DNA from: Hydractinia symbiolongicarpus
Taxonomy: Eukaryota > Cnidaria > Hydrozoa > Anthoathecata > Hydractiniidae
Assembly (NCBI RefSeq): GCF_029227915.1
Contig: NC_079878.1
Span: 1,116,001-1,180,000, forward strand
Direction: 5' to 3'
Length of the DNA: 64,000 nt
This document shows, one piece after another, positions 2,032 to 41,873 of this stretch. The translations under genes were made by a program, and so were the position numbers. The notes under the pieces are model-generated. The model was given only the letters and a program-made list of their open reading frames with translations, was not told the origin of the DNA and did not search any database. Position 1 is the first letter of the stretch. Each line of letters begins with the position of its first letter.

Positions 2032-2400
2032 TTATTCAGCTGCTTTTGGTGGTGACTTTAAATCGGCTAGTTCTTTCTCTTTCGTTGCAAGTGCTTCGCT
2101 AACATCTAGAAATAGATAAATTCGCGCTAAAAATTAACAATGTTGACATCACGTAAGAAAGCCACAAAAGCATATAAGTTTGTTTCAAATTTGCCGACAG
2201 CGATATTTAAGAAATTTTGTTTGTTTTTTATTTTGTTTGTGGGATTTAATTCTTGCAAAAATTTAGGCGTTTATGTCAATCCATAATTTAAGTATATATA
2301 TATATATTTTTTTACCTTCTCCTCCTTCAGCTTTCTTTTTCAAATCAGCAATTTCTTTTTCCAATGCTTGGATCTGCGTGGTTTTGTCATCGTCACCCAT
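2032..2400 (-). CDS. Pedibin-like small peptide precursor
   Basis: A 52-residue protein is encoded by two coding exons, 2316-2400 and 2032-2105. The donor (G|GTAAAA) and acceptor (TTCTAG|AT) leave the frame intact. Residues 27-42 read GEDVSEALATKEKELA. This aligns with the Hydra foot peptide pedibin/Hym-346 as I remember it (GEDVSHELEEKEKALA), about 11 identities over 21 positions. Both halves look like short amphipathic coiled coil (IQALEKEIADLKKK, then ATKEKELADLK), and there is no signal peptide or membrane segment. The exon junction falls inside the pedibin-like stretch. A leader intron is predicted between 2452 and 2778, with a separate small ORF in the leader. The exon model is strong; the pedibin assignment rests on a short remembered sequence and should be aligned formally. 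Release of an active peptide is inference. Confidence 0.8.
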
Positions 2401-2425
2401 GCTGAAGAATGTTTGAATAATCGAA

Positions 2426-38200: not shown

Positions 38201-41200
38201 TTGCAACTGGTCTATACCTATTTGCAACTAGTCTATATTCGTCTGCAACTGGTTTATACTTTAGTAGGCGACGTTTCGGGAGATCCTTCTCCCATCATCG
38301 GGCAAAGTAAAATGATGTTGAGCATGTATTTATATAATTGCAGTCGAAATTCATAAAAATTAACCAACCAGAAACGAGCTGATAATTACAGTTAATTATG
38401 GTAATTAACATTTCCGGACCTAGATGTAGGTAACTACTTCTTCTGTAGGGCTGGTAACCAAATATCAGGAAGTTGATTCCAGATGCTGTTTATGTGTTTG
38501 TTACGTTCTACACTGTTGATGGTTTCTTTAATCTTCCTGGCCGTTGTTCTGGATTCTCTGTCAATGATTTTTTTCTCATCCTAATTAAACTGTTGACTTC
38601 TGCTCCACCTGTGGTCCGTTTTTCTTCACATCTCTGCTTCTCACTGCACGCATATGTTCTTGTACTCGTTGCTTAAACTTTCTTTTTGTTTCGCCTATAT
38701 ACACTGCATCACAATCTTTATACAGGATTTCGTAAACAACATTGATTTGTTCTTCCAGGTTTATTTTGTCTTTTGGTTTAGACAAAGTGGTTCTTAGGGT
38801 GTCTTTAAATTTTAAATTAAGTTGCTTTTGTGACATTGTATCATAGAAGCATTAACTTATGATGTGTTGTAAAAAAGCCTGAAATATAGCTTGTGAAGAA
38901 CTCTTATAAGAGGATCAAATAAAAAATTTATAAATGTTTATTTATTTTAATTTTTATTAGGAAATACTTCATTTGATTAATAAAAATGAATAATCTTTAA
39001 AAATAAACATTGTTGTTTTTGTAATTAAAACATGGCTAAAGGCATGTGGGAAACCTTGCAAAAACATCAAATAAAAACAACTCAAAAAACATATCGACTG
39101 GCAAAAACAATTTTCTAAGCACAGTTTTCTTTACATCCATTCTATAAAACTCATACATACTGGAGCATCTGAACAAACTCCAGCAATTATAACATTTTTA
39201 TTGTTTTATTCAAAACTGTTTACCTTTTCTAAAAAATACTTTTCAACATGTATATATCTATACTTGATATTAATAAATGATTTAACAATCAGCCAGTTCA
39301 TGATTATTATACAATGCAAAAACAAAACATCAATATAGAATTCCAATATGAGAATCTAAGAATGATTGGTCATCATTGCGAATTAGCAATAAAGGTTTTG
39401 TCAGAATAAATCTAGCATTTTTCAAAAAATAATCATTTTCCATACAGCTTCCAGTGAAAATAATTAAAGCATACTTTGTGCATATACCTAAAATACTGCC
39501 TTGTTGTGAGGAGGATCCAATCCACAATAACCAGAAGTGTGAATGAATAAGCCCACCACACTATTAGCGCCACACAGAGAGATCATCTCCCAATGCATAA
39601 AGTAGCACAGCTTCAGTTTCATTACACCAATGATATTTGCCCTTTATGATCAAGGGTCCAATGGGGACAAACCAGAAGGAGAATGCACACAACATGTTAT
39701 CTATACAAAATTTCAAGTGCAATAAAACTTAGATCCAGGATCTAAATTCTCTTTAAATTCTTCAGCTAATAATAATTTTTTTGTGACGGTTTCTTTTATT
39801 CGTTTCTGTGTTTTAAACCTTCTGAAAAAAAGTATGGTTTGAAAGCTTGCGTACAATCACACATTATCTCACCAGAGTCTGCTAATCAGTATACCAAGGC
39901 ATCTGCATGTTACCACTTAATCAAATGTATACCAATTAATTTTGCATGCATTTTTGTTTTCTATCTCACAAATAAGAACTGCACTGTTGCTATGACAAGA
40001 GTTGCTTTTAGTTGATTTTAAAAAGTGAACTTCGGTTTTTGCCTGATTTTGTCTTTTTAAAATACTGTACAAAAAAATCCACTGTTTAATTAATGTGTGG
40101 TAGATTTAACTGCATGTATACCTGACTGTTATTATTAATACCAAGCTTTATTACCAATTTTTCCTGACTGCCAGCTGGATGACAATCTATTTTTTTTTCA
40201 ATTAAAGCATATGTCACAAGGTGTAAGGTGGCTAGTTGTTCAGGCTTTTTCAAGATATATTCAGTATTCTCCCAGTCATCACATCACATGATACTTAAAC
40301 CAATCACTTTGTAATTTTTTTAATTCTTTTTCTTCTCCAATGTTTACAGATTATAAATAAAGATCATGTTTTATAGAACTGTGACAGTCTGGCTTATCAC
40401 TTTTAGTTTCTTTTTTGTTTTACTGGCTCTCAGTGGAAATAATCCACTAAATACATATATTATTTACGACAGATAAGTATTTTTCAGGGTATCCATTATA
40501 GTTTAAGGGGAAACTTGCCATTCAGCTTTTATTAAATCACAGCTTAATACACGATTTTAAAATTAGGATCCCATTTTCATTTTCTATTGCAGTGGGAAAA
40601 GTTGGACTTCCCTATTTTTGGTAGTGAAGGCTACAAAAAGTGGCACAAAAATTAGAACTCTTTGGATAGATTTAAAGCTTTCGTTGCGATGTTTTTACTT
40701 TGTCAGTATCACAATTTATGTTTCTCAGCTAAAAAATGAGTAAAAAATCATTGCTAAGTATCATAATTATATATATGAAGTTGCAAAACATGCTAAATCA
40801 AAAAAACTTGGGAAATATAATATAAGACTTTAGGGTCTTGGGTTTAATACTATGGCCTGATAAATTTATCAAAAGAATTTCTCCTTTTTATCAAATTCTG
40901 TATGCTTTGCTACTGAGAACACGGCGTAAAAGTCCAACTTGGCCTATCAGGACATTTCCCATAAAATCTTTGTTTTCTAACTTCAAATCTGAAATATTTA
41001 TGGATCTTGTTTATTTAAAGCTTTTTCTGCAGGATTTTAATGAAAATTAGTTGCGGTGTGATGTAATGTTTTGATTTGCATCGAGAACAATGGACATGCG
41101 CGCATATGCACAGGCAAAAAATATAAACAACAGACCATAATGACCGAAAATATTAAGTGTAAAAAAAAACTGACGCTAAAATTGGTTATGTCTGCTCTTA

Positions 41201-41873
41201 AACAGAGAAAATAATATTTCGGAAAAAACAATTCCAATTTATTAACAACCTTACATTCCTAAAAATCTATAAATAAGCATAAAGATTCATATTTGCTATG
41301 TGGTCCTTCTTTTCTTGCCTCTCAGGATACGGATGTGCATATACGAAACTTTGTAAACATTCGCAAAGAATAAAGATTTGAGAAAAACAAAAAAAAAATA
41401 TACAAAAAAATTAGAAAAGTGGCACGTGATTAAAACTGATCAGAGAAAAGCATTAAAATAAATTCAGGGAAATATATAGTTAATCAGATAAACAAGTCAC
41501 TTTAGTCACCAAACGTTCGGTGACTTTTTTCCTGTTGTTGTTTTTATCACCCAAATTTAAGGTGTAAAATAAGGAAATTTGCAGTAAAATTTTAACTAAT
41601 CTAAAAACTGCTTTCCTAATCCCGTTTATTTTATTATAGCTCTTCGTATTAAATGTTTAAATGAACCACTAAGTACAGAAAACTTTACCAAACCAACAAG
41701 ACAGCGAAGCAGTGTTTCGAAAAAGTAGGCGTTGCTTTGTATAGTAGAACGTTAATATTTTTAAACTTACTTTCGCTTGATGGCAGAGGATTTTTTTCTT
41801 CTGTTTCGACATGTTTTAATTTACTTGCATCAAAGGATGCTACTTCAGAAATATCAGGTTTGGTTCCCTCCAT
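35284..41873 (-). CDS. Thypedin-like beta-thymosin repeat protein (pedin precursor)
   Basis: Three exons, 41771-41873, 35631-37226 and 35284-35477, join with matching phases to 630 residues. It has 16 beta-thymosin/WH2-type units of about 38 residues, one in exon 1, 14 in exon 2 and one in exon 3. Each carries an actin-binding LKHVETEEK core (beta-thymosin LKKTETQEK). Seven alternate linkers read [13 protein letters not shown] once and [12 protein letters not shown] six times. They match the Hydra foot peptide pedin as I recall it ([13 protein letters not shown]), whose precursor thypedin is a beta-thymosin repeat protein. No signal peptide is present. The C-terminus is a Thr/Ser-rich linker followed by KKPCNIL, a CaaX box with terminal Leu, which favours geranylgeranylation. 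Expected role: G-actin binding, possibly membrane-tethered, and/or peptide precursor. Intron 1 (about 4.5 kb) contains Penelope-like sequence. The family call is very secure; the pedin link is strong; peptide release is inference. Confidence 0.93.
35631..37226 (-). repeat. Seven 228-bp coding repeats filling one exon
   Basis: The central thypedin-like exon is 1596 bp, exactly seven units of 228 bp. Each unit encodes two beta-thymosin modules (76 residues). Internal units are nearly identical in DNA, including at synonymous sites, while the first unit ([16 protein letters not shown]) and last unit ([18 protein letters not shown]) are diverged. This is the pattern left by unequal exchange or gene conversion with protected ends. 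The opposite strand carries identical 61-codon shadow readings, which are not genes. Confidence 0.95.
37736..37872 (-). mobile_element. Penelope-like terminal repeat, copy B
   Basis: The segment from TTTAGTAGGCGACGTTTCGG to GAGCTGATAATTA recurs almost unchanged at 38259-38392. On the minus strand it reads GATGATGGGAGAAGCATCTC then CCGAAACGTCG, the hairpin typical of Penelope pseudo-LTRs with hammerhead-like motifs. The expected CTGATGA core reads CCGATGA, so ribozyme activity is doubtful. It lies in intron 1 of the thypedin-like gene. Confidence 0.65.
37938..38165 (-). pseudogene. Unrecognised 70-codon reading between Penelope repeats
   Basis: A minus-strand open stretch without a start codon includes [20 protein letters not shown], then [20 protein letters not shown], and ends ETLNEHFTL. 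It has protein-like composition and a CxxC pair. A TTTCAAG acceptor-like site precedes it. It could be part of the mobile element, an older insertion or a leftover exon. I do not recognise it. Confidence 0.35.
38199..38261. repeat. Three-copy 21-bp minisatellite
   Basis: TTGCAACTGGTCTATACCTA-type units occur three times in a row with a 21-bp period. They abut the start of Penelope terminal repeat copy A. Confidence 0.75.
38259..38392 (-). mobile_element. Penelope-like terminal repeat, copy A
   Basis: This is a near-identical copy of 37736-37872 in the same orientation (GGGAGATCCTTCTCCCATCA in place of GGGAGATGCTTCTCCCATCA). It follows the GIY-YIG coding remnant on the minus strand, as a pseudo-LTR does in Penelope-like elements. 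The same CTGATGA to CCGATGA difference is present. Confidence 0.65.
38408..38836 (-). mobile_element. Penelope-like element, GIY-YIG endonuclease remnant
   Basis: The minus strand encodes [20 protein letters not shown] and [12 protein letters not shown] (38585-38836), the GIY-YIG nuclease of Penelope-like retroelements. A shifted frame (about 38420-38570) continues [20 protein letters not shown] and [15 protein letters not shown], the usual C-terminal tail. The reverse transcriptase is absent, so this is a 5'-truncated dead copy. It lies in intron 1 of the thypedin-like gene. Confidence 0.85.

Follow-up and report, generated by a model that had tools for sequence, protein, structure and literature searches.

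Thypedin of Hydra is reportedly titled a multicopy precursor (of pedin) by Herrmann et al. 2005. Pedin and pedibin are described in passages of one source as epithelial peptides active in Hydra foot formation, with pedin related to thymosin beta-4 (PMC13072300). Thypedin is credited with 27 beta-thymosin-like domains in part of another (PMC3614969), and a table within a third lists it (AAW82079) among Hydra extracellular-vesicle proteins (PMC8721104). The present analysis concerns a pedibin-like gene and a thypedin-type beta-thymosin gene of Hydractinia symbiolongicarpus. Both are found in a stretch of 64,000 nucleotides, referred to as the window, which spans positions 1116001-1180000 of the 35,952,230-base contig NC_079878.1 (assembly GCF_029227915.1; 480,894,487 bases, 76 contigs).

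Likely relatives of both Hydra foot-peptide precursors are located within 40 kb on one strand of the window. The interval extends from 2032, the stop of a 52-residue gene, to 41873, the ATG of the beta-thymosin gene; these are also the end coordinates given in a preliminary description of the window. There are 33 kb between the two genes, and both gene models are on the minus strand, which agrees with the placement on one strand in that description. It had further reported a pedibin-like 52-residue gene at 2.0-2.4 kb, which is borne out by the top Pfam match and by shuffle tests, and a beta-thymosin repeat gene with seven pedin-like RPE(V/K)LPDVS peptides, of which exactly seven were counted. 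CEP104 was said to lie between the two, and three CEP104 domain matches on the minus strand agree with this. The observation is thus confirmed in its core, and the interpretation attached to it is supported in part.

One sub-claim, a micropeptide gene between the two, found no support. In the interval from CEP104 to the thymosin gene, nine frames on the minus strand (28570-28770 and eight others, covering 8 of the 12 listed minus-strand ATG frames) gave no Pfam match above cut-off; the 11 plus-strand frames and any spliced small genes fall outside that test. The reading judged probable for the locus as a whole is that of two leaderless genes related to Hydra pedibin and thypedin, the thymosin product being an actin binder and the linkage incidental.

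Structure of the thypedin-type gene

Three exons splice into a protein of 630 residues with 16 beta-thymosin (LKH) repeats. Exon 2 matches Pfam Thymosin (PF01290) above cut-off along 14 stretches (E 2.1e-181, 587.9 bits), and Tandem Repeats Finder reports a 228-bp unit in 6.4 copies with 92% matches. Each unit consists of two beta-thymosin repeats with alternating linkers, the linker EETRPE(V/K)LPDVS(A/G) being located ahead of every second repeat. At the V/K position V occurs once and K six times over the seven segments. The V copy matches what we take to be the pedin peptide in 11 of 12 columns, and none of 2000 shuffles scored as high. Given tandem beta-thymosin repeats that carry several pedin-like segments (with the pedin letters as assumed here), the gene is classed as thypedin type. 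An NCBIfam scan of the thymosin repeats returned low, sub-cut-off matches only. The pedin-like segments were probably multiplied through duplication of the 228-bp two-repeat unit.

Table 1. Features of the two genes and of the interval between them (positions within the window)
Feature	Position	Strand	Remarks
Pedibin-like gene, coding exon 1	2316..2400	-	ATG at 2400; 85 nt; ends in phase 1; donor GTAAAA
Pedibin-like gene, coding exon 2	2032..2105	-	Stop at 2032-2034; acceptor TTTCTAG
CEP104 gene	8449..23154	-	Span of open frames with CEP104 domains PF21038, PF21040 and PF21039; outer ends and exon limits approximate; between the two genes
Thypedin-type gene, coding exon 1	41771..41873	-	Repeat 1, canonical thymosin beta-4-like start; thymosin beta-4 chain 4pl8_H, E 9.5e-14
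Thypedin-type gene, coding exon 2	35631..37226	-	Tandem 228-bp two-repeat units; Pfam Thymosin
Thypedin-type gene, coding exon 3	35284..35477	-	Last, degenerate repeat and C-terminus; splice signals only
Pedin-like segment 1	37072..37110	-	Only copy with V, as in presumed pedin
Pedin-like segment 2	36844..36882	-	K at the V/K position
Pedin-like segment 3	36616..36654	-	K at the V/K position
Pedin-like segment 4	36388..36426	-	K at the V/K position
Pedin-like segment 5	36160..36198	-	K at the V/K position
Pedin-like segment 6	35932..35970	-	K at the V/K position
Pedin-like segment 7	35704..35742	-	K at the V/K position
C-terminal CaaX-like tetrapeptide CNIL	35287..35298	-	Its Cys is the sole Cys in 630 residues

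When the pedin-linker repeat is aligned to Protein Data Bank (PDB) chains, LPDVS falls on KPDMA at the start of thymosin beta-4; in the exon-1 repeat the equivalent position reads TKPDISE. Given these two correspondences, the pedin-like segment is the linker together with the start of the helix in every second beta-thymosin repeat, and no separate cassette. Alignments of individual repeats to chains of thymosin beta-4 and ciboulot (one of them an actin-thymosin fusion) take in the C-terminal half of this segment. The Ac-SDKP peptide of thymosin beta-4 would derive from the same position as the pedin-like letters. As those letters belong to the linker and N-terminal portion of a beta-thymosin repeat, it becomes less convincing to regard the thymosin gene as a pedin cassette gene.

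Purifying selection appears to act on the repeat array. Estimates by the Nei-Gojobori method (NG86) over the six full units gave a nonsynonymous divergence (dN) of 0.016, a synonymous divergence (dS) of 0.314 and a dN/dS of 0.05 overall; these come from 15 non-independent pairs, with the seventh unit, which diverges into the C-terminus, set aside and gene conversion between units outside the model. For the 13 pedin-like codons dN/dS is 0.12 and for the rest of the unit 0.03, so that constraint is tighter on the thymosin core than on the pedin letters. The excess in the pedin codons is carried by two varying positions (V/K and A/G), so this difference is a small-sample result.

The only Cys of the protein is residue 627 of 630, within a terminal CNIL that follows KKP, and the end of the predicted gene model fits the CaaX pattern (C-terminal C-a-a-X). 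By simple arithmetic, a lone Cys would land at the CaaX position by chance in about 1 in 630 cases. A CaaX-like CNIL end would suit geranylgeranylation. A literature search combining thymosin repeat, prenylation and CaaX found no paper. The 630-residue protein most likely binds G-actin via its 16 repeats, and CNIL, if prenylated, may anchor it to membranes.

Pedin-like segments, cleavage and release

One alternative regards the thymosin gene primarily as a multi-copy peptide precursor, whose seven segments would be the selected product, excised and released in the form of pedin-like signals. Seven near-identical segments at fixed spacing, with a single K before each, would suit such a precursor, but the segment falls on the N-terminal portion of a beta-thymosin repeat and, among the six units compared, is less constrained than its surroundings. 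A published title on thypedin also speaks of a multicopy precursor; in the present protein K is found in six of the seven copies where presumed pedin has V. Processing sites give a similarly divided picture. KK occurs at 548 and 624 only, the former five residues past the seventh pedin-like segment, yet a scan of the 630 residues found no dibasic site directly flanking any segment. Likewise, no signal-peptide-like stretch is apparent near the N-terminus of either this or the 52-residue protein in a hydropathy scan, used alone and without a dedicated predictor (best 11-residue Kyte-Doolittle mean 0.2). A literature search for the peptide letters found no paper. On balance a role primarily as a precursor is considered unlikely, and an actin-binding thymosin protein whose repeats include the pedin-like letters is preferred. 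If pedin or pedibin peptides do act extracellularly here, their source would have to be cytoplasmic proteins that leave the cell non-classically, for example in vesicles, and are then cleaved. The listing of Hydra thypedin among extracellular-vesicle proteins is in keeping with such a route.

The pedibin-like gene and its linkage

The 52-residue protein is MGDDDKTTQIQALEKEIADLKKKAEGGEDVSEALATKEKELADLKSPPKAAE, with an intron that splits the codon of the D after GE. Its product would be a pedibin-like, probably helical microprotein. Pedibin/Hym-346 (PF08182) is its best match among 24,736 Pfam models (E 0.001, 19.3 bits), and residues 13-41 align on positions 2-30 of the 35 in the model. Since the score is under the curated Pedibin cut-off of 25.8, the protein is called pedibin-like and is not treated as a formal PF08182 member. 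In a scan of 41 sequences at E<=10, Pedibin was matched by the real protein and by 0 of 40 shuffles; the match depends on residue order. The shuffles (40 scanned of 70 generated) preserve hydrophobic, charged and other positions, and HMMER filters discard most weak matches. A search of solved structures with the protein gave a best E of 0.61, and a pattern search of viral contigs gave 50 pattern matches and no relative.

An unrelated short coiled-coil protein that resembles GEDVS by chance would also yield a sub-cut-off Pedibin score, and coiled-coil models come next, at 14 to 16.4 bits. However, Pedibin ranks above every other model and is lost on shuffling. Additionally, 12 of 17 aligned columns, including GEDVS and KEK, are identical to what is presumably the pedibin peptide, and 0 of 2000 shuffled peptides reach that score. 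A chance likeness is therefore quite unlikely. The preliminary description had called for alignment to Hydra pedibin/Hym-346 and thypedin; the agreement holds for the Pfam Pedibin model and for the presumed pedibin and pedin letters.

The same description had asked whether the linkage reflects shared regulation or conserved synteny, and nothing here lends support to either. Between the 1000 and 834 bases upstream of the two genes, 19 nine-letter, 4 ten-letter and 0 eleven-letter words are common, whereas 1000 pairs of random windows have medians of 23, 7 and 2; word sharing in the nearest 400 bases upstream is also at chance level. A tblastn search of the window and 50 kb on each side revealed no further pedibin-like or thymosin gene, with weak matches only (E >= 2).

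A conserved, co-regulated pair of foot activators, that is a hydrozoan microsyntenic block with shared enhancers and basal or stolon expression, would account for two genes lying 33 kb apart on the same strand. By arithmetic, if each gene is single copy, the chance that two given points in a genome of 480.9 Mb are no more than 40 kb apart is about 1.7e-4; this figure overstates the case because the pair was singled out post hoc. Parts of the literature are of use to both sides. Synteny is given as high between Hydra and Clytia, but reorganisation as faster in Hydrozoa and Cubozoa than in Anthozoa and Scyphozoa, in passages of PMC9112765. Macrosynteny is given as high among Hydra, Hydractinia, Turritopsis and Bougainvillia in a portion of PMC12239608. 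On microsynteny, the literature search found general statements only. With CEP104 between the genes and upstream regions no more alike than random pairs, such a conserved, co-regulated pair is very unlikely and their closeness is most likely incidental. An ancient co-regulated hydrozoan foot-activator block, with both proteins leaderless, cytoplasmic and leaving epithelial cells in vesicles, thypedin lipid-anchored through CNIL and pedin segments freed from an actin-buffering protein, is rated very improbable. Were the linkage conserved, two foot-peptide systems would be tied together in the genome; were it not, two family members would simply lie near each other by chance.

Several points weigh against the joint reading of leaderless relatives, actin binding and incidental linkage. 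Homology of the 52-residue protein to Pedibin/Hym-346 is probable and not proven, because of the sub-cut-off score and the coiled-coil model at 16.4 bits. Its KKK at 21-23 is immediately ahead of the pedibin-like core AEGGEDVS and could serve as a basic cleavage site, and the thymosin protein has the lysines described above before each segment and after the seventh. Exon 3 and CNIL are drawn from splice signals alone, and the first AATAAA or ATTAAA is 693 bases beyond the stop of the thymosin gene. The step to an incidental linkage rests on absence of evidence. Finally, a role confined to the cytoplasm may not be the whole account, because both Hydra peptides are described, in the passages available, as active foot-formation factors (PMC13072300).

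Other features were noted in the window. Just upstream of the thymosin gene is a single-exon gene with thioredoxin and PITH domains (42708-43580, minus strand, ATG at 43580), presumably of TXNL1 type. Intron 1 of the thymosin gene holds a GIY-YIG nuclease fragment (38585-38851, minus strand; Pfam E 7.4e-05, 23.4 bits, cut-off 22.6), perhaps, at a guess, from a Penelope-like element. Between the CEP104 frames, retrotransposon-like reading frames are apparent by eye at 13069-13626 and 17122-17786 (minus strand); Pfam found nothing in 13069-13626 and a sub-cut-off AT_hook only in 17122-17502. A single-exon Ras-family GTPase of 223 residues ending in KKCC is located at 52375-53046 on the plus strand.

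Beta-thymosins in bacteria and in known systems

A pattern search of genome contigs with the thymosin repeats gave 26 pattern matches and one relative, which is bacterial. This gene, at 9929-10369 of JADGDE010000001.1 (L001) from a Thiotrichales bacterium, has three beta-thymosin repeats (Pfam Thymosin 7.9e-34) and bacterial neighbours; its best segment is 65% identical to the window repeats, and a hydrophobic signal-like N-terminus is seen by eye. Pfam Thymosin matches occur in 2 of 42 genomes of the order, in 3 of 369 genomes sampled from its class, two of them those already counted, and in 0 of 14 controls. A second gene from the order (L015:1483-1641, G021:C145) encodes a 52-residue beta-thymosin with the pedin-like linker MRAEILPDVSE, beside a helix-turn-helix (HTH) regulator.

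In the same class, a 64-kb contig (G182:C32) carries a 356-residue actin gene (L016:356-1426; Pfam Actin 2.9e-124, 571.7 bits to PDB actin 1c0f) and, 68 bp downstream, a 50-residue beta-thymosin gene (L016:1495-1647), with an EF-G gene adjoining. The bacterial beta-thymosins may be transfers from eukaryotes; among literature titles on beta-thymosin, bacteria and horizontal gene transfer, none was found that reports such genes. The MRAEILPDVSE linker suggests that linkers of the pedin type also occur outside foot-bearing polyps. A bacterial actin next to its own buffer protein deserves separate study.

With likely relatives in a second genome, it becomes possible to test whether pedin and pedibin are signals in their own right or parts of cytoplasmic proteins, and the pedin-like letters here are part of a beta-thymosin unit and less constrained than its remainder. 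Compared with Hydra pedibin/Hym-346, the 52-residue protein has it as best Pfam match and has a GEDVS...KEK.LA core in common with the presumed peptide, but it is under the Pfam cut-off. The thypedin-type protein resembles Hydra thypedin in its many beta-thymosin-like repeats and differs in their number, 16 as against the 27 reported, and in having the pedin-like segment ahead of every second repeat only. With Drosophila ciboulot, the multi-repeat thymosins of crayfish and silkworm and vertebrate thymosin beta-4 it shares the thymosin core, and its exon-1 repeat is close to thymosin beta-4; unlike them, it has 16 repeats in alternating pairs, the RPE(V/K)LPDVS linker and a C-terminal CNIL.

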